Below, in pieces: positions 2,490 to 16,457 of a stretch of 23,402 nucleotides of DNA. Numbering within the stretch: the first letter of the stretch is position 1; every line of letters starts with the position of its first letter. The notes below the pieces were generated by a model. That model was not told the origin of the DNA, ran no database searches, and saw nothing but the letters and a program-made list of their open reading frames with translations. A program made the position numbers and the translations under genes. This DNA comes from a virus. The DNA lies in the IMG/VR virus record IMGVR_UViG_3300046387_000098, positions 1 through 23,402 of that record; one strand, 5' to 3'.

Positions 2490-2518
2490 TTGACAGTACG
2501 TGTTTTTGGTGGTAAAAT
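2490..2518 (+). promoter_or_regulatory. Sigma70-type promoter, TTGACA-17-TAAAAT
   Basis: Consensus -35 TTGACA at 2490-2495, a 17-base spacer, and -10 TAAAAT at 2513-2518. It points right toward the gene starting at 2554. It lies back to back with the leftward late promoter at 2478-2471, making this intergenic stretch a divergent control region. Confidence 0.8.
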
Positions 2519-2553
2519 ATCTCTATCCAATGGGGAGAGTAAATACAACAATT

Positions 2554-3120
2554 ATGAACATATTTATACTGAACGAATGTCCCGTCATCTCTGCACAAGA
2601 GCAATGTGACAAACATGTAGTTAAGATGATCGTCGAGTCTGCACAGATGTTATCAACAGCCCATCGTATGCTCGACGGTCAATCCTATCGCAAACCTTCC
2701 AAGTCTGGTAAGACCATGATCAAGTATTATGATCATCCTACCCTAGACGATCAACTCTACAAAGCAGTCCACCACGGACACCCCTGTACCATCTGGACAA
2801 TGGAATCTATCTGCAACTACATTTGGCACTACAAACACTTCATTGCTCTCTGTGACGAATATATGTATCGTTATGGTAAACGTCACTTGACAGATACCCT
2901 TCTGCGTAGTATACTTATGACTCCGCCGGCGCGTATACCACACGTCGAGCGGACACCGTTCAAACTTGCCATGGGTTCTAACCCTGAGTGTATGATGTCC
3001 GACCCTGTAGAGTCGTATCGTGCATTCTATCAGACCAAGCAAGATCGGTTTAGTATGACATGGACTAGTCGTCCCGTCCCAACATGGTTTGAGGTAAAGA
3101 ATGAAAGAGCAAGTGCTTAA
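2554..3120 (+). CDS. Conserved phage protein of the MNIF...QCDKHVVKM family
   Basis: 188 residues from ATG 2554. In-frame ATGs at 2500 and 2530 are rejected: the first precedes the -10 box of its own promoter, and the second would leave about five bases of leader. The N terminus is MNIFILNECPVISAQEQCDK followed by HVVKMIVESAQMLSTAHR. I recognise this as a recurrent conserved pattern in phage proteins of unknown function; conserved Cys, Asp, Lys and His near residue 20 could form an active site. The rest is rich in His, Tyr and Trp and mostly helical. The leader contains GGGGAG about 17 bases before the ATG, which is far for ribosome binding. First gene after the 2490 promoter. Confidence 0.75.
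   Translation: MNIFILNECPVISAQEQCDKHVVKMIVESAQMLSTAHRMLDGQSYRKPSKSGKTMIKYYDHPTLDDQLYKAVHHGHPCTIWTMESICNYIWHYKHFIALCDEYMYRYGKRHLTDTLLRSILMTPPARIPHVERTPFKLAMGSNPECMMSDPVESYRAFYQTKQDRFSMTWTSRPVPTWFEVKNERASA
2561..2568 (-). promoter_or_regulatory. Possible second leftward late promoter TATAAATA
   Basis: Exact TATAAATA on the minus strand inside the 5' coding end of the 2554 gene. It could produce a longer leader, about 90 bases, for the leftward gene at 2464. It might also arise by chance from the codons for Asn-Ile-Phe-Ile. Confidence 0.35.
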
Positions 3121-3409: not shown

Positions 3410-3702
3410 TTCACGGTTCAATGAGACACACTACCACTGGTAGAAAGAAGACGTATAATGCTTGGTCTACGAAGAAGAAACCCGCCCCTAAGTTCGTTCC
3501 TATGCAAGTGAAGAATGAACCCTACCGAAGGGAAACCCCCGTGTATAAGTCTGTAGATGTCAATGTAGACTGTACCCAAAAGAAAGAACCTCAGAAGTAC
3601 ACTGGCACTCTGGTTAAGGGTATCGGTACAATGCATAAGTCGAATGCCATTCCGGTCATTGATGAACAGCAAATGAAAGACCTTGCGTCTATGAGGAGAT
3701 AA
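3406..3702 (+). CDS. Small basic conserved phage protein, GTG start
   Basis: 98 residues from GTG 3406, which overlaps the previous stop and has GGAG 8 bases upstream; an ATG at 3421 (MRHTTTGRKKTYNAW) is the alternative. It is strongly basic at the N terminus (Arg/Lys with Trp and Tyr). The C-terminal segment KYTGTLVKGIGTMHKSNAIP has the look of a conserved phage family of unknown role ('M.HT..RRK.Y..W' then 'YtGd.v.GIatMHKSNavPV'). No catalytic motif is seen. It may bind nucleic acid given its charge, but that is inference. Confidence 0.7.
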   Translation: MIHGSMRHTTTGRKKTYNAWSTKKKPAPKFVPMQVKNEPYRRETPVYKSVDVNVDCTQKKEPQKYTGTLVKGIGTMHKSNAIPVIDEQQMKDLASMRR

Positions 3703-3708
3703 TCAAAA

Positions 3709-4110
3709 TTGATTACTTTAGAATTTTACGGTCGAATTAAGAATCGGAAAAGATACGAAGAGTTTGCAATTAATGTCATCAATGACTTATTGCCTCGATC
3801 TTTCAAAAGAGACATTAGTGTGTTTGTTCACTTCACCAAGAACATAGATGAGATGGGTCTCTGTCACGTCGAGGAGAAGGATGTGATTGGAGTACAGATC
3901 AATACCAACCAAAGTGCGGCCGAGATCGCTCAGACTCTCGCCCACGAACTGGTCCACGTCAAACAGTTCATTCGCAAGGAATTGAACGCCGATATGGATC
4001 GATGGAAAAGAGACCGCATCCCTGAAGATGTGATGATTCCCTACCGTAATCAACCTTGGGAGATTGAGGCCTTCGAAAAGGAAGTTTGGTTAACAAAGGC
4101 GTATTGGTAA
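3709..4110 (+). CDS. HExxH zinc-metallopeptidase-like protein (gluzincin type), TTG start
   Basis: 133 residues from TTG 3709. This non-standard start is chosen because a strong AGGAGAT Shine-Dalgarno sits 9 bases before it, inside the end of the previous gene. The central motif is AHELVHVKQ with His79, Glu80, His83; downstream is QPWEIEAF, where Glu118 or Glu120 could be the third zinc ligand as in gluzincins. The region before the motif is helix then strand, as in small SprT/ImmA-like zincins. The same AHExxHxxQ ... QPWEIEA pattern occurs in the gene at 8350, so the two look like diverged paralogues. Substrate unknown. Confidence 0.7.
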   Translation: MITLEFYGRIKNRKRYEEFAINVINDLLPRSFKRDISVFVHFTKNIDEMGLCHVEEKDVIGVQINTNQSAAEIAQTLAHELVHVKQFIRKELNADMDRWKRDRIPEDVMIPYRNQPWEIEAFEKEVWLTKAYW

Positions 4111-5947: not shown

Positions 5948-6216
5948 TGCCTAAGATCGTCAAACTGAATTACGACCGGAAGGTCCGTTACATATTCGAC
6001 AAGGACACCGAAGAGTGTTCTCGCCTCTCTAACGAGGTCATGGACCACTATGGTCAATATTTAGAAACCCCACACGGTTGGTGGATGGAAGATATTAAAA
6101 CTTTTCATAAGACCGTCCGAGAGTGTGGATTATCAGTCAGGGAGTTCCTCACAAAGACATGGAAACCACCAAAGAAAAAGGCTCCCGTGAAGAAACGGGT
6201 GAGGAAAAAGAAATGA
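5947..6216 (+). CDS. Hypothetical phage protein with lysine-rich tail, 89 aa
   Basis: Begins at the TAATG junction with the 50-aa gene. The body is mixed charge (KVRYIFDKDTEECSRLSNEV). The last 17 residues are almost wholly basic (KPPKKKAPVKKRVRKKK), suggesting contact with nucleic acid, although that is inference. A helix rich in aromatic residues (HGWWMEDIKTFHKTVRE) precedes the tail. It ends in an ATGA overlap with the SprT-like gene and supplies that gene's GAGG ribosome-binding site. Confidence 0.7.
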   Translation: MPKIVKLNYDRKVRYIFDKDTEECSRLSNEVMDHYGQYLETPHGWWMEDIKTFHKTVRECGLSVREFLTKTWKPPKKKAPVKKRVRKKK

Positions 6217-6818
6217 GGGCAGCATATCGAAGGGCGATAGACGCGGGCCTCACTACCTCTCAGGCCCACAAGTATTCCGACTACTACCGTCGCAAGACGG
6301 TCCTACCAAAACGCGACAGCGAGAAGACCAAGACCTACAACGCAGAGTGGAAACTCGAAAACGAACACCCCGACTTGATCGGTCCACTCAAGGACTTCAA
6401 GGACGTGGAGAAGTTTGTAAAACAAGTGACTTCGTCCAAGACGTGGGAGAAGGTGTCTCGTTACCACGGCAAGGTGCGCGTCGTCCAATCGCGCAATATG
6501 GGAGGTCGTGCCGCCTACATGGGTAAGTCGCATGGGTCGTGGATTGAGATCTCGCCTGCGTTCGACTTCAACAAGTACATTGTCCTACACGAACTTGCAC
6601 ACAGTGCGGGACACAACCACCACCACGTGACCTTCCGTGAGTGTCTTTTGAAGTTGGTGTCTAGGTTCCTTGGTCGTGAGACCGCCGCGATCCTGAAGGC
6701 GAACTTCAAGGAACAGGGTCTGAGAGTGACCCCGTCGAAAGCGAAGGATCCGGAGTCGTGGTTGAGGGCTGTAAAAAATGTGCCGTGTGACTTATTACCG
6801 AAAAATAGTCACAGCTAA
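6213..6818 (+). CDS. SprT-like / TIGR04338-like HExxH metallohydrolase
   Basis: 201 residues from ATG 6213, chosen for the ATGA overlap and GAGG upstream; an in-frame ATG at 6123 would overlap the previous gene by 94 bases. The zinc motif is LHELAHSAGHNHHHVTFREC: His126, Glu127, His130 and a cluster of histidines at 134 and 136-138. The 'HExxH ... H..(T/E)F' layout is that of SprT-like and TIGR04338-type putative metallohydrolases. A basic N terminus (AYRRAIDAGLTTSQAHKYSD) may be a small helical domain. The gene looks richer in G+C than its neighbours, suggesting separate acquisition. Substrate unknown. Confidence 0.7.
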   Translation: MRAAYRRAIDAGLTTSQAHKYSDYYRRKTVLPKRDSEKTKTYNAEWKLENEHPDLIGPLKDFKDVEKFVKQVTSSKTWEKVSRYHGKVRVVQSRNMGGRAAYMGKSHGSWIEISPAFDFNKYIVLHELAHSAGHNHHHVTFRECLLKLVSRFLGRETAAILKANFKEQGLRVTPSKAKDPESWLRAVKNVPCDLLPKNSHS

Positions 6819-8144: not shown

Positions 8145-8350
8145 TGGAATGGTATGAAATGGGAGATGCTGGTGAGCATCTCCGAGACGTGATTGATGCT
8201 TTTATCGATGGGTTTACCAACGAGAGAGAATTCTCTGCGGAACTGGATGCGATGGGACTGTCCTATGAAGAGCAGAACGAGATTATTCGAAGTGAAATTC
8301 GTGTCTTGGAAACGCAAATCGCAGAGTCTGCACAAGGTACGATCCACTAA
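8144..8350 (+). CDS. Hypothetical acidic helical protein, 68 aa
   Basis: ATG 8144 (TGATG overlap); GTG 8141 is an alternative start one codon earlier. The product is acidic and helical (MEWYEMGDAGEHLRDVIDAF, SYEEQNEIIRSEIRVLETQI). Not recognised; an acidic small phage protein of this type could be an inhibitor, but nothing in the sequence shows that. Confidence 0.6.
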   Translation: MEWYEMGDAGEHLRDVIDAFIDGFTNEREFSAELDAMGLSYEEQNEIIRSEIRVLETQIAESAQGTIH

Positions 8351-8841
8351 TGAACGTCGCAGAAAATGTCATCATTGAAAACTCGCCCAGTTTTGCACTG
8401 TCGGACTACACGTTCCGCGTTGCAGAGGCGTTAGGAATTAATCGCCTTGGTGGATACATCAAGGTCGATTTCAAAGAAGAAGACATCACCCATTTCTCAG
8501 CTGAGGTGGATGGAACCGAAGACCGAGTCGACCTCACTGTCCGATTGGATAACGAGATTACCGAAGATCAGGTCAAAGTGCATATTGCACATGAGATGAT
8601 TCATGCTGTACAGATTCTCACAGGCAGACTTATACATATAGGTCTCACATGGTGTGAGGAGTCGCATGGTATCGTCTACAAACATATTTTTGACGACAAG
8701 GAATATATCAACGTCAAGTACGCTGATCAACCTTGGGAAATAGAGGCATACTCTTATGAAGAAGAAGTCTATAACGCGGTCGAATCCGGTAGCGAAACAC
8801 TCGCCGAAATTCAATCGGCCATCCACCCACGTCGACCGTAA
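8350..8841 (+). CDS. HExxH zinc-metallopeptidase-like protein, paralogue of the 3709 gene
   Basis: 163 residues from ATG 8350 (TAATG overlap). Motif AHEMIHAVQ has His81, Glu82, His85; the later QPWEIEAYSYEEEV offers Glu130 or Glu132 as a third zinc ligand. The same two motifs in the same order occur in the 3709-4110 protein, but here the gap between them is longer by an insert around residues 90-120. Before the motif is a beta-rich stretch (RVDLTVRLDNEITEDQ). It is probably a cytoplasmic zincin; the target is unknown. The last 86 bases are shared, in another frame, with the small gene at 8756. Confidence 0.7.
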   Translation: MNVAENVIIENSPSFALSDYTFRVAEALGINRLGGYIKVDFKEEDITHFSAEVDGTEDRVDLTVRLDNEITEDQVKVHIAHEMIHAVQILTGRLIHIGLTWCEESHGIVYKHIFDDKEYINVKYADQPWEIEAYSYEEEVYNAVESGSETLAEIQSAIHPRRP

Positions 8842-11442: not shown

Positions 11443-11465
11443 GGGGACTTCGGTCCCCTTTTTTT
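11443..11465 (+). terminator. UUCG-loop intrinsic terminator
   Basis: GGGGAC (11443-11448), loop TTCG, GTCCCC (11453-11458), then seven T. Textbook intrinsic terminator for the gp32 unit; its T-run overlaps the stop codon of the converging leftward gene. Confidence 0.92.
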
Positions 11466-13182
11466 ATGAGGTACCTGCCGTGAACGGATCTACCGGAGTT
11501 AAGCCACCAGTGACCATTGCATTTGCACCACCTATATTGTTAGTGGTTGATTGGGGAGCGATAACATTAGTACTACCACCACCCGCACTAGACTGCGCTG
11601 ACTGATATGCGGTTTGACCAGCAGATATTGCATTTCCTGTCGTCTTTCCTACTCCACGTGCACCTTTACTCGGGGAACCCCCAGACGCCGGCAGGCTCGG
11701 AGAACTTCCGGATGCCTTTATCGTGCCACCAGTATCAGCCACGAGTTTTGTCATTTCAGACGATGGCGTTGGTGCATCTCCCATGATAGCTCCTGCGAGC
11801 GCTTCTGCGATTTCCTCACCAAACATTGATCCAAATATACCACCACCAATACCACCGATTGCAGTACCTAGGCCTGGTATTGGTATTAATGCGGTACCCA
11901 TGGCACTTCCCGCAATCGCTCCTAAAGTGGCCCCACCAAGACCACCAAAGACTTTAGCCATCTCTTTAGTCTTCTGTGCACGAGTTAAGTCTTCGTTTAC
12001 TGCGATCATTCCAAGAGTTCCGACTCCCAGTAATTGACCTAGAATGGGAATTCTTTTACCAAGTTTTGCCATACCCCCAAGGATCTTTGCGCCTTTTGGT
12101 CCGATGAATTGTGCGAGTTTTCCTGCCTTCGCAACAGCTTTATTATCACTGCCGGCCATTTGAGATACTCTTTTCTGCGCGGCATCTACTATTTTACTCT
12201 TAGAAGTTGATGTAGAAGCGCCGACTCCCTTTAATGCTTTGTCTGCCGCGTCTGCTTTTATTCGTTTACCACCTTCCATCAAGTTGCCGGCTTTGTCAAT
12301 CTTAAACCCCTTTGCCTTTAGTGCTTCTTTTTGGGCTCCGGTCAACGACTTCGTCGTGCGAGCGTTTCTCTGCATTCTTTCATTACCATCAAGAACTGGC
12401 GGTGTTCTTCCCGTAACAAAATTCTTTGCATTGGACAATCCAGTCCCAACGCTCTTAACGGCATTGCCGAGGACGGAACCCGCACCCCTTACGCCCTTAT
12501 CGAGACTACCCATCATTTTTCTATAGGTGCCGGTCAAGATTGCAGTTGATGTGGCCAGGGCGGGTACCGATTCTTTGAATGATTCGAAATCACCTTCTTG
12601 AATTGCAATAATTCCGTCCAGAGTTTTGCCAAGGATTTCGTTACCCTTCGTATACATGTCTGTGAGTTTCGGAACCTCAATACCGGCTTTATCTACGAGA
12701 CCCTTTACCCCTGTAATAAAATTATTGACGGCCTCTCCCGCCTTTTGTGCATTCTCACCACTAAGAAAAGCACCGACGCCTGCGATACCCAAACCAGCAC
12801 CAATAGCATAACGTCCTAGACCTAAACCAATAGAACCACCACCCGCACCAGCGATTCTATTTTTGGTGTTGTCCATTAGACCACCAAGTCGGCTCTTGCT
12901 CTTAGGGTCCTTGTCCTTTCCGGTTAACTTGGATTCGTTTTCTGCATTCAATGCGTCAGCGGCTGCCTCAACACGCGCCTTTCTCGCTTCTTCTTCGCTT
13001 TTACGTTTTTGTTTTTCGGACTCTTCAAATCTCTCTTGATTGGCTTTTTCAGACGCCGCAAGTTGTTCCGCTAACGACGCGCTCTGGTCAGCCATCCTGT
13101 TAAGGATATCTTCAGTCTTTTTTTCATCATTCTGTTCTTTTAGAGCAGTAATGACATCATCTAACGTCGTTTGTTCGGCCAT
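11464..13182 (-). CDS. Probable tail tape-measure / baseplate hub protein (gp29 counterpart), 572 aa
   Basis: Leftward, start at 13182-13180 with AAGGA seven bases upstream inside the end of gp51. The N-terminal 100 residues are a charged coiled coil (DILNRMADQSASLAEQLAAS, KQKRKSEEEARKARVEAAAD). Then come glycine-rich hydrophobic segments, one near residues 110-145 (GSIGLGLGRYAIGAGLGIAG) and one near 410-465 (GGLGGATLGAIAGSAMGTAL), and a Ser/Thr/Gly-rich tail. Long helices plus membrane-like segments, placement right after the tail-assembly-chaperone pair, and a length close to T4 gp29 (590 residues) favour the tape measure, which sets tail length and enters the host membrane. No direct gp29 sequence motif is recognised; another hub or internal virion protein is possible. 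Confidence 0.55.
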   Translation of the reverse strand: MAEQTTLDDVITALKEQNDEKKTEDILNRMADQSASLAEQLAASEKANQERFEESEKQKRKSEEEARKARVEAAADALNAENESKLTGKDKDPKSKSRLGGLMDNTKNRIAGAGGGSIGLGLGRYAIGAGLGIAGVGAFLSGENAQKAGEAVNNFITGVKGLVDKAGIEVPKLTDMYTKGNEILGKTLDGIIAIQEGDFESFKESVPALATSTAILTGTYRKMMGSLDKGVRGAGSVLGNAVKSVGTGLSNAKNFVTGRTPPVLDGNERMQRNARTTKSLTGAQKEALKAKGFKIDKAGNLMEGGKRIKADAADKALKGVGASTSTSKSKIVDAAQKRVSQMAGSDNKAVAKAGKLAQFIGPKGAKILGGMAKLGKRIPILGQLLGVGTLGMIAVNEDLTRAQKTKEMAKVFGGLGGATLGAIAGSAMGTALIPIPGLGTAIGGIGGGIFGSMFGEEIAEALAGAIMGDAPTPSSEMTKLVADTGGTIKASGSSPSLPASGGSPSKGARGVGKTTGNAISAGQTAYQSAQSSAGGGSTNVIAPQSTTNNIGGANAMVTGGLTPVDPFTAGTS

Positions 13183-13185
13183 TTT

Positions 13186-13341
13186 TTATCCTTGTTGTTT
13201 CGCACGTTCCGTTTTTTCCTCAATGTCGTCTATCAACATTTGGAGGTAAATCTCCCTCTCCCAAGGTATCATATGTTCAACTTCGTCCAGTGAGTAATTG
13301 AAGTTGTTGAGCAGTTGAAAGTTGACTTGATAGTAGTTCAT
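13186..13341 (-). CDS. 51: Baseplate hub assembly protein gp51, probable -1 frameshift extension of gp26
   Basis: 51 residues if started at ATG 13341-13339: MNYYQVNFQLLNNFNYSLDE, then HMIPWEREIYLQMLIDDIEE. The 'ysL.E.e.MmPWErdiY..mL...iEEe' core is that of gp51 in T4-like phages, required for hub assembly. This ATG has no Shine-Dalgarno and lies in a possible hairpin (ACTTGAT 13346-13340 paired with ATCAAGT 13331-13325 on the minus strand). The frame is open further upstream to 13374, running out of the slippery run at the end of gp26 in the -1 frame, so a gp26-gp51 fusion is likely. Its stop (13188-13186) lies just before the tape-measure start. Confidence 0.75.
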   Translation of the reverse strand: MNYYQVNFQLLNNFNYSLDEVEHMIPWEREIYLQMLIDDIEEKTERAKQQG

Positions 13342-13364
13342 CAAGTTATCGTGAGAGAGGTTTA

Positions 13365-13377
13365 CTAAAAAAAATCA
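13365..13377 (-). promoter_or_regulatory. Candidate -1 ribosomal frameshift site
   Basis: Slippery heptamer T-TTT-TTT (minus strand 13374 to 13368) in the gp26 frame, directly followed by TAG. The -1 frame reads on without a stop into gp51. A TGA in the -1 frame at 13377-13375 ends just before the run, so the window of overlap is exactly the slip site. Stop-adjacent slippery sites of this form are known recoding sites. Confidence 0.6.
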
Positions 13378-14072
13378 TCAATACCTTTCAATTCACGAAC
13401 ATTATCGTGACCACAAGACTTGCACTTAAACTCCAAGTCCTGTTTGATTGCGGGGGCTGAATTTACAAAGTCCGCAAGCTTTTCAAACTGTTCGGTTGTC
13501 ATTGAGTCTATAAACTCTAACACCGATTCTCTCGATTCGTCTGAGAGGTCTACCTTTTCTTCTTCGGTCAGAACCGATCCCATACATGCCATTATCAATT
13601 CCAACAACCCTTCTGTTTGTGTTTCGCTGTCTAGAAGCTTTGTGTTGTTCATAAACTCTTCATACGTCGGGTATTTCATCAACAACGAAACATCGTCGGT
13701 TATCTGTAGCACTCCGTCTTTGATTTCACCGTCTATTTGTATCGAGTCCAAGTCTACCTGTACCTCATTTTCAGAGTCACATTCTTCGCACTGTATGATG
13801 AGGTCCGCTTGCTCTCCGACTGACTTGGATCTAATCTTGGTGAAAAGGTAATCCACATCAAAGGTAGTGAGTCTCCCCGATATTGGTTCTTCAACACATG
13901 AGTGTATGGTTCTAATGATCGCTCGAACTATGTCGGATCTTTCTTGTGTTTCATATGCAATCATTAATGCTTTCTGCTCCTTTACTAAGAAAGGACGAAA
14001 GGTTGTCTTTTGTCCAGACGAAGGAACTGTCACCACATAACTAGGTGACACATTCAGTTTTGGTAATGCCAT
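13365..14072 (-). CDS. 26: Baseplate hub assembly chaperone gp26
   Basis: 235 residues, start 14072-14070 with AGGA upstream. The opening MALPKLNVSPSYVVTVPSSG and FRPFLVKEQKALMIAYE are characteristic of the gp26 family (T4 baseplate hub, 208 residues in T4). Two CxxC pairs, CEEC at 95-98 and CKSC at 217-220, may bind zinc. The last codons, GAT-GAT-TTT-TTT-TAG, contain a run of eight T. That run forms a T-TTT-TTT slippery heptamer (13374-13368) one codon before the stop. A -1 slip continues into LVNLSHDNL and then gp51. In T4, gp26 and gp51 act in central hub assembly. Confidence 0.85.
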   Translation of the reverse strand: MALPKLNVSPSYVVTVPSSGQKTTFRPFLVKEQKALMIAYETQERSDIVRAIIRTIHSCVEEPISGRLTTFDVDYLFTKIRSKSVGEQADLIIQCEECDSENEVQVDLDSIQIDGEIKDGVLQITDDVSLLMKYPTYEEFMNNTKLLDSETQTEGLLELIMACMGSVLTEEEKVDLSDESRESVLEFIDSMTTEQFEKLADFVNSAPAIKQDLEFKCKSCGHDNVRELKGIDDFF

Positions 14073-14088
14073 AATGTATCCTAATAAT

Positions 14089-14733
14089 TTAAATAATTCC
14101 GCCTAGATTGATACCTATCTTGGAATCAATCAGGTCTGCAAGTTTACTTCTCGCGTCTTTCTTCACCACCCATTTGGTGTATGCAAAGTTCACTTGAAGT
14201 TCTACGATCCCCCCTTGACTGGTCAGACTGATCGCGTTTTGCGTTATGGGAAACGCATCTTCTAAGGTCACGCTGTATATAGAGCTGCCCAATAGATCAA
14301 AGTTGATGTCTAGTATACCCAGATCAAACCCGAAACGAGCCTGTGGTTTTGACAGTTGATGAATTGTGATGTCTTTCGCAAAACCACCGCTACCGTCCTT
14401 TCCTTTTTTCCATTGTATGTTCCCGTTTTCTTCGTTGACCATCTGGGACATCCACTCATCAAAGTACTTCCTTGGACCATAGTCATTGGTCATGTAGAAC
14501 GTCATGTTAAGGTCAGACATCGCGAAACCGTTTACAACCTTCTCAGTGTGTACCCCAATGGACCTATCTAAGGTCAATATCTGTTTACCAGGCATGTCCA
14601 CATCCTTACATAGGATGTTCATAGTGTCTCCTCTCATACCCGCAAATGGGGGCAACTCTACCGCGAAGTGATGAGAGAATGCCAAACCATTCTTGAGACT
14701 CACCTTTGATTTTAGTTCTTCTATACCTGCCAT
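14089..14733 (-). CDS. gp19/gp54-fold tail tube or tube-initiator protein
   Basis: 214 residues, start 14733. The start MAGIEELKSKVSLKNGLAFS followed by HHFAVELPPF, the segment ILCKDVDMPGKQI, and the helix-strand stretch DLNMTFYMTNDYGPRKYFDE fit the T4 tail-tube fold (gp19, 163 residues; gp54, 320 residues). The gene lies with hub genes and not beside a sheath gene, so the baseplate tube initiator gp54 is more likely than the major tube gp19. It is between the two reference lengths. In T4, gp54 with gp48 caps the baseplate and nucleates tube polymerisation. The fold call is firmer than the gp54 call. Confidence 0.65.
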   Translation of the reverse strand: MAGIEELKSKVSLKNGLAFSHHFAVELPPFAGMRGDTMNILCKDVDMPGKQILTLDRSIGVHTEKVVNGFAMSDLNMTFYMTNDYGPRKYFDEWMSQMVNEENGNIQWKKGKDGSGGFAKDITIHQLSKPQARFGFDLGILDINFDLLGSSIYSVTLEDAFPITQNAISLTSQGGIVELQVNFAYTKWVVKKDARSKLADLIDSKIGINLGGII

Positions 14734-15372: not shown

Positions 15373-15886
15373 CACGTTTTTTGCGTTTCTTGAACGCAGG
15401 CATCTTTTTGAGTGGTTTCTTGGACTTGACGCGTTGCGCAGCCTTGGGCATGATACCCTTTGTGGTGAGTTCTTTCTCTGTCCATATCTCAAACTGATAT
15501 CCACGGTCCTTTGCATACTCGACCGCAGCCTTCCACTTGGATTGGTTCTTGATGTAGGTGAGACCCTCAGTCATGAGTGTCTGTCGAGACTTGCCCTGTT
15601 TTTTCTCTGGTCTCTTGGTCTCTTTGGCAGGTTTGACCTCAACCAACACCACACGACCCGACTTGTACTTGATCACAAAGTCCACGTAGTATCGGTGGGG
15701 TTTCTTGTCGGTCTCGCAGATATAGGGTATGACCAACTCCTCAGAAACCCACTGGACCACGTCTGAGTTCTTGTCGCACCACATCATCACATACTTCTCC
15801 CACCCTGAACGGTAGACGATTTCGTTCACGTCGCCTGCATACTTTTGTGGTTTGGTGGGTTTATACTTCCCTTTATACGTTTTCAT
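15368..15886 (-). CDS. 4: Head completion protein gp4 (PD-(D/E)xK nuclease-like)
   Basis: 172 residues. The match to T4 gp4 (150 residues) is strong: YKGKYKPTKPQKYAGDVNEI, VYRSGWEKYVMMWCDKN, WVSEELVIPYICETDKKPHR, YYVDFVIKYKSGRVVLVEVK, and NQSKWKAAVEYAKDRGYQFE. Within these, Glu30, Asp69, Glu83 and Lys85 form the PD-(D/E)xK-type catalytic pattern, as in TnsA-like endonucleases. gp4 acts after DNA packaging so that the tail can join the head. The C terminus is an added Lys/Arg-rich tail. The start overlaps the methyltransferase stop by 14 bases. Confidence 0.88.
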   Translation of the reverse strand: MKTYKGKYKPTKPQKYAGDVNEIVYRSGWEKYVMMWCDKNSDVVQWVSEELVIPYICETDKKPHRYYVDFVIKYKSGRVVLVEVKPAKETKRPEKKQGKSRQTLMTEGLTYIKNQSKWKAAVEYAKDRGYQFEIWTEKELTTKGIMPKAAQRVKSKKPLKKMPAFKKRKKRV

Positions 15887-16457
15887 AACGTCTCAGTAGG
15901 ACCATACAGTTGAGGCGGTCAGTGGAAGGGTAGTAGAACTCTCGCACCTTGCGGTATGGGAAGTCGTCTCGATCCAGTTGGTTGTCGATGACCGCCTTGG
16001 GGTATAGGTCTCCCATACATCGGACGTAGTCGTCCACCAACATCCACTCGACACCCGACTCAGCGCATAGGTCCATGTCCTGAACCATTCCCTTGGGTGT
16101 ATGGTCCCCATCAATGAAAATCATATCATAACCAGATACGTCGTCAGGTATCAACTGGTGTGAGTCGCATAGGGTGAACTGGAATCGATCCTTAAACTGA
16201 TCCTTGATCTTCCCAGCATTGACCTCTGTGTGTGGGTAGTGTCCAATATCTGTGGAGTGCACTCTTACACGACGATTGACGGATAGGAACGTGTACGCAC
16301 TGTGACCAAAGTTGAACCCAATCTCGAAGACGGTATTTGCCTGCGTCATAGATAATATACTCGCAAACGCCAGACACGTCTTATTATCAGGCAGAACGTG
16401 ACCCTCAATGGTGTCCCATCCCTCAGTCAGGAATTTAGTGTCGTCTACTAGGTTCAT
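15873..16457 (-). CDS. SAM-dependent methyltransferase-like protein
   Basis: 194 residues, start 16457 with no clear Shine-Dalgarno. It has a class I Rossmann pattern: the nucleotide loop NTVFEIGFNFGHSAYTFL near residue 42, an acidic second strand (VRVHSTDIG), and IFIDGDHTPKGMVQDMDLCA near residue 114, like the Methyltransf_24 family. No DNA-methyltransferase (N/D)PPY motif is present, so a small-molecule, sugar or protein target is more likely than DNA bases. First gene of the leftward late operon, overlapping gp4 by 14 bases. Confidence 0.7.
   Translation of the reverse strand: MNLVDDTKFLTEGWDTIEGHVLPDNKTCLAFASILSMTQANTVFEIGFNFGHSAYTFLSVNRRVRVHSTDIGHYPHTEVNAGKIKDQFKDRFQFTLCDSHQLIPDDVSGYDMIFIDGDHTPKGMVQDMDLCAESGVEWMLVDDYVRCMGDLYPKAVIDNQLDRDDFPYRKVREFYYPSTDRLNCMVLLRRYENV

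Follow-up and report, generated by a model that had tools for sequence, protein, structure and literature searches.

Genes 26 and 51 of a marine virus of the T4 type in all likelihood form one tail-assembly-chaperone gene that would be decoded in two ways, with ribosomes slipping back by one base at the 3' end of gene 26 to give a predicted long form. The virus is represented by a 23,402-base IMG/VR fragment of a T4-like phage, referred to below as the window. According to the model, translation would mostly terminate at the gp26 stop codon, the product being the short form (TAC-N, comparable to lambda gpG), and a minority of ribosomes would slip back one base on U UUU UUU through tandem slippage of two Phe tRNAs; in relatives, depending on the heptamer variant, the slipping pair would be either two Phe tRNAs or one Phe and one Leu tRNA. 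Reading on in the gp51 frame would extend the product to 295 residues, the long form (TAC-NC, comparable to gpGT). The slip rate is probably raised by an internal Shine-Dalgarno-like sequence, located about 9 nt before the heptamer, that would draw the ribosome backwards. As for function, the short form would be expected to cover the tape-measure protein, with the few long-form copies bringing in tube subunits through their gp51 part. Direct support comes from the reading frames, the conservation of the heptamer, the absence of start codons and the homology of T4 gp51 across the junction; from these we infer the slip itself, its rate, the role of the Shine-Dalgarno sequence and the functions of the proteins.

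Organization of the locus

The features of the locus are as follows.

14089 to 14733, minus strand: adjacent upstream gene, for a gp19-like tail tube protein; PHROG_45, E 7e-30
13365 to 14072, minus strand: gp26, predicted short form (TAC-N, counterpart of lambda G), 235 aa, ending in GIDDFF-stop
13384 to 13388, minus strand: AAAGG, a weak internal Shine-Dalgarno-like sequence (-3.9 kcal/mol) that precedes the heptamer by 9 nt
13368 to 13374, minus strand: slippery heptamer T TTT TTT (U UUU UUU in the mRNA), in phase, read directly
13365 to 13367, minus strand: 0-frame stop codon TAG, directly after the heptamer
13186 to 13374, minus strand: -1 frame, open from the slip site to the end of gp51; predicted long-form extension (counterpart of lambda T)
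13325 to 13346, minus strand: 7-bp hairpin, ACTTGAT-8 nt-ATCAAGT, arms at 13346 to 13340 and 13331 to 13325
11464 to 13182, minus strand: tape-measure-like protein, 572 aa, next gene downstream; weak PHROG matches

Direct reading of the gp26 open reading frame gave GAT TTT TTT TAG at its 3' end, where the heptamer and one extra T make up a run of eight. The initial annotation had placed a T-TTT-TTT heptamer next to the gp26 stop at minus-strand positions 13374 to 13368, which is correct to the base. It had also described the -1 frame as open from the slip site through nine codons into gp51, and translation confirmed this: the frame opens at the slip site with FF, continues through LVNLSHDNL (nine codons) and MNYYQ, with the ATG at 13341 to 13339, and ends at a TAA at 13188 to 13186. 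The earliest start codons in this frame are a TTG at 13344 and the ATG at 13341. Neither candidate start has a Shine-Dalgarno sequence, as had been remarked for the ATG; the best anti-Shine-Dalgarno pairing is +0.3 kcal/mol (locus L001, with an identical junction).

Profile searches connected the two frames. Window gp26 matched Pfam PF12322 (E 7e-55) and positions 5 to 232 of the 282 positions of PHROG_150 (E 3e-57), and the -1 product matched PHROG_634 (E 4e-22) as well as positions 232 to 281 of PHROG_150. Because these two parts of PHROG_150 adjoin, a single existing family profile covers both halves. The gene order is tail tube, gp26, gp51 and tape-measure-like gene, in agreement with the parallel to lambda G/GT that had been drawn. 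The assignment of the downstream gene as tape-measure-like also held, through weak matches to PHROG_23574 (E 1e-6) and PHROG_794 (E 1e-4). Phages HTVC008M and Cr30 have an annotated tape measure shortly downstream of gp51, with one small gene between.

Conservation of the frame and the slip site

Relatives were gathered from IMG/VR and from GenBank phages, with gp26 and gp51 located by profiles, and junction representatives under 80% nucleotide identity defined 89 clusters. Comparison of the junctions had been set beforehand as a test that could refute the frameshift, and the frameshift withstood it. At all 256 loci with a downstream gp51, gp51 was in the -1 frame and this frame was open across the end of gp26. 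An in-phase T TTT TTN heptamer was found at 183/184 distinct junctions, with TTC (123), TTT (49), TTA (10) and TTG (1) as the variants of the second slip codon. The suggestion that gp26 and gp51 are fused by a probable -1 frameshift is thus strongly supported. Elsewhere in gp26 of the relatives such an in-phase heptamer was rare (16 of 20,207 codons), versus 89 of 89 cluster representatives at the slip site. The gp26 stop codon lay 0, 1, 2 or 8 codons past the heptamer (42, 130, 3 and 8 junctions, respectively). A heptamer that stays fixed as the stop drifts by 0 to 8 codons indicates that selection holds the slip site, not the stop.

Codon usage at the site was also constrained. The codon before the slip codons (GAT, AGT, AAT, TCT, GCT, CAT or ACT) ended in T in 89/89 clusters, with Asp, Ser, Asn, Ala, His or Thr as the encoded residue, and the first Phe codon was TTT, again in 89/89. 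Given background codon use, and with clusters treated as independent, log10 P was about -17 for the T of the preceding codon and about -13 for the TTT; these values ignore relatedness and so overstate the strength of the constraint, the direction of which is not in doubt. Over the 36 nt after the slip codons, diversity at codon positions 1, 2 and 3 of the -1 frame was 0.45, 0.32 and 0.62, mirroring the pattern of upstream gp26 in its own frame (0.51, 0.36 and 0.65). It is thus very likely that ribosomes read this stretch in the -1 frame.

These data also bear on whether gp51 is instead a separate small protein, made by reinitiation after the gp26 stop or from a start of its own. Many database entries annotate a short stand-alone gp51, and in 17/89 clusters an ATG lies no more than 15 nt beyond the slip site. 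In 66/89 clusters, however, there is no ATG, GTG or TTG within 15 nt, and in 49/89 there is none within 36 nt. When homologues were searched for a good gp51 ribosome site, only 1/89 clusters had, among its first 36 nt, a start codon whose Shine-Dalgarno pairing reached -4 kcal/mol. The ATG of the window is replaced by a Thr, Ile, Ala or Val codon in near relatives, and the conserved -1 coding pattern is already present from the slip site on, before any start. Separate synthesis would moreover leave the heptamer unexplained, and T4 gp51 carries a gp26-like part in front. We therefore regard a separately made gp51 as very unlikely to be the general arrangement, even though stop/start overlaps (TAATG or TGATG) occur in KVP40, D484, Cr30 and Cygsa01. 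In the first three of these phages, the heptamer and the overlap are both present. Pseudomonas phage Cygsa01 (L089, positions 3480 to 3500) is the only relative with a -1 gp51 that has no heptamer; it has a TAATG overlap, consistent with a possible switch to coupled reinitiation. Reinitiation is thus possible in this minority of phages.

Two further explanations concern the T run itself. RNA polymerase could slip on the run and add a base to the transcript, and the window has eight T, a length that suffices for polymerase slippage in some systems. At 134/183 distinct junctions, on the other hand, the run is only six T, and it always begins at codon position 3, preserving an X XXY YYZ phasing for which a polymerase has no need. 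The internal Shine-Dalgarno sequence described below likewise points to the ribosome. Transcriptional slippage is thus most unlikely as the main route. Alternatively, a sequencing or assembly error in the homopolymer might have broken a single gp26-51 open reading frame; homopolymers are error-prone in sequencing, and T4 gp51 shows that a single open reading frame works. The -1 arrangement is nonetheless present in all 256 records, including the isolates P-SSM2, KVP40 and HTVC008M, which refute an error, and the short six-T run at most junctions also speaks against one. The probability of this explanation is negligible.

Sequences flanking the heptamer

The frameshift model gains a candidate stimulatory element from the sequence upstream of the heptamer. 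Relatives have a purine-rich stretch, often GGAGGG, 8 to 9 nt upstream of the heptamer. Pairing with the anti-Shine-Dalgarno sequence of 16S rRNA averaged -6.2 kcal/mol over the 89 clusters, compared with -4.9 kcal/mol in synonymous shuffles (z -10.8). The signal persisted in 23 clusters under 65% identity (z -4.7), among which offsets -19 to -12 stood out, with z values of up to -4.8. It is also visible in codon choice: Glu before the conserved Gly is encoded by GAG and GAA in a ratio of 35:10, compared with 394:936 elsewhere (P 8e-11). An internal Shine-Dalgarno sequence at about this distance stimulates -1 slips in E. coli dnaX. By analogy, the internal Shine-Dalgarno sequence of gp26 probably raises the slip rate; the signal stands out across the family but is weak in the window, and the ribosomes of the host may differ.

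The hairpin at the gp51 ATG in the window, also described in the initial annotation, does exist as an inverted repeat, but it is not a conserved part of the site. It begins 21 nt 3' of the heptamer, whereas frameshift stimulators usually lie 5 to 9 nt away, and all 7 of 7 pairs can form in only 12/183 distinct junctions. We therefore rejected it as a conserved stimulator. In the near clade, pairing at the hairpin slightly exceeded that in shuffles (82.0 versus 78.0%), and RNAalifold applied to the same alignment returned a different, weak structure (-1.77 kcal/mol). The hairpin is thus probably a local feature common to near relatives only. A search for conserved RNA structure 3' of the heptamer in the relatives found none. 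In the 89 representatives, the 60 nt after the heptamer folded on average slightly better than synonymous shuffles (mean z -1.25), but they shared no structure; this excess could stem from relatedness or nucleotide order.

The two-gene arrangement of T4

T4 encodes gp26 (208 aa) and gp51 (249 aa) by separate genes on opposite strands. T4 gp51, encoded by one open reading frame, aligned with residues 25 to 283 of the predicted window fusion, across the junction (E 9e-18), and T4 gp26 aligned with residues 26 to 235 (E 1e-8). On PHROG_150, T4-type gp51 covered positions 13 to 280 and T4-type gp26 positions 14 to 235. Since its alignment spans the junction, T4 gp51 is a natural single-frame equivalent of the fusion, which adds to the parallel with lambda.

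The T4-type genes also separate the heptamer from the protein motif that it encodes. At the matching place T4 gene 26 reads GAG TTC TTT, without the heptamer, in contrast to T TTT TTT in the window. Among T4-type gp26 genes of phages with separate genes, an end resembling G-L-K-E-F-F is mostly kept and the heptamer is found in 0/12. The heptamer is therefore not simply a by-product of the Phe-Phe motif.

An unrooted tree of 39 sequences resolved frameshift-type proteins, T4-type gp26 and T4-type gp51 as three separate, well-supported groups, with the Straboviridae phages KVP40 and AS-yj inside the frameshift group. A fixed cassette, comprising the internal Shine-Dalgarno sequence, a spacing of 8 to 9 nt, U UUU UUN and a stop within 8 codons, would span cyanophages, pelagiphages, vibriophages and rhizobial phages. 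We suggest tentatively, and short of holding it probable, that it is ancestral in the T4 superfamily and still present nearly everywhere, only the T4 lineage having gone over to two genes. As a part of this same tentative reading, which draws on the distribution of the cassette and on a tree without a root, T4, the textbook exception, might represent the derived state. The superfamily in any case offers a natural comparison between chaperone pairs made by frameshifting and pairs that are separately encoded.

Protein models and chaperone function

An AF2 model of gp26, built from an alignment of the window and IMG/VR loci only, had a mean pLDDT of 87.8. When compared with the PDB using Foldseek, its best-probability match was HK97 gp13 (2OB9; probability 0.82, TMt 0.51, but E 0.83). 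The model therefore weakly resembles the HK97 tail assembly chaperone. Another match was the TAC-like structure 3FGX (probability 0.35), which has been named a tail assembly chaperone (PMC9603447). Against viral models, gp26 proteins were matched widely, and a sequence search of the PDB gave no match. An AF2 model of T4-type gp51 built from 4 sequences was poor (pLDDT 59) and was set aside. T4 gp26 and gp51 are listed among the chaperones of hub assembly, and gp51 does not occur in the particle (PMC3004832). The gene order, the gp26 model and the T4 roles together fit the lambda G/GT scheme.

Relation to known frameshift systems

The closest functional parallel is the tail assembly chaperone frameshift of lambda G/GT (Levin, 1993; Xu, Hendrix and Duda, 2004; 2013; reviewed in PMC5009743). 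As there, the proposed -1 slip lies near the end of the short-form gene and adds a C-terminal extension in the predicted long form, with the tape measure next and the tail tube gene upstream. The gp26/gp51 system differs in its T TTT TTN heptamer and family-wide internal Shine-Dalgarno sequence, and its likeness to lambda does not come from sequence comparison. A further parallel is the -1 frameshift of E. coli dnaX, a cellular gene with an A AAA AAG heptamer and a strong downstream hairpin. dnaX shares with gp26/gp51 an upstream internal Shine-Dalgarno sequence and a slippery heptamer, whereas gp26/gp51 is without a conserved hairpin.

A 2016 review described the G/GT-type frameshift as widely conserved, with T4 as the exception (PMC5009743). 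The initial annotation knew of no such frameshift in T4-like phages, but its novelty does not stand: passages in two later papers credit Vladimirov, Gautam and Davidson (2022, Virology 566:9-15) with identifying the tail assembly chaperones of T4-like phages (PMC10274946, PMC12846349), so that, on the strength of these passages, the idea is not new. Judged by these citing papers, the chaperones identified there belong to the same family as gp26/gp51 and have short and long forms. One of the papers states, in the relevant passage, that some T4-like phages have two separate chaperone genes instead of frameshifting (PMC10274946), in contrast to the frameshift arrangement of the window lineage; according to a passage of the other, -1 slips in T4-like TAC-N genes are known to be signalled by poly-T sequences (PMC12846349). 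The TAC frameshift of the Vandenendeviridae and Andersonviridae (phage Adele; PMC12846349) likewise takes place at a poly-T motif close to where TAC-N ends, ahead of the tape measure gene, but the motif is GTTTTT and these are other phage families. As far as we have checked, what is added here is apparently the breadth, the drift of the stop codon, the codon-level test and the internal Shine-Dalgarno sequence, of which the last and the breadth may be unreported.

Annotation of gp51 in other phages

In Aeromonas phage AS-yj (L267, about positions 1880 to 2069), which we take to be Aeh1-like, an unannotated -1 gp51 follows gp26 at a T TTT TTC site. This probably explains why gp51 was reported to be missing from Aeh1 in a survey in which cyanophage gp51 had only about 20% of the usual length (Sullivan et al., 2010; PMC3037559). 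Frameshifting explains this short gp51 of marine T4-like phages, at about 20% of the T4 length. In S-PRM1, S-CAM1 and ACG-2014d gp51 is unannotated, yet it was found by tblastn. The frameshift reading suggests that the gp26 and gp51 annotations in hundreds of ocean phages represent one gene with ribosomal slippage.

Other genes in the window

Beside the head and tail completion genes, the window encodes a methyltransferase-domain protein at 15873 to 16457 (minus strand; PF13578, E 3.5e-10). Four different small proteins with an HExxH zinc-metallopeptidase-like motif are encoded within 9 kb on the plus strand, at 169 to 534, 3709 to 4110, 6123 to 6818 and 8350 to 8841, the motifs being GHELMHC, AHELVHV, LHELAHS and AHEMIHA, an unusual density for one phage segment; two of the four gave sub-threshold matches only, to Pfam SprT-like, M78 or DUF6782. 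The protein encoded at 2500 to 3120 (plus strand) matched pyrimidine dimer DNA glycosylase (T4 DenV-like, PF03013) close to the threshold (E 3e-4).
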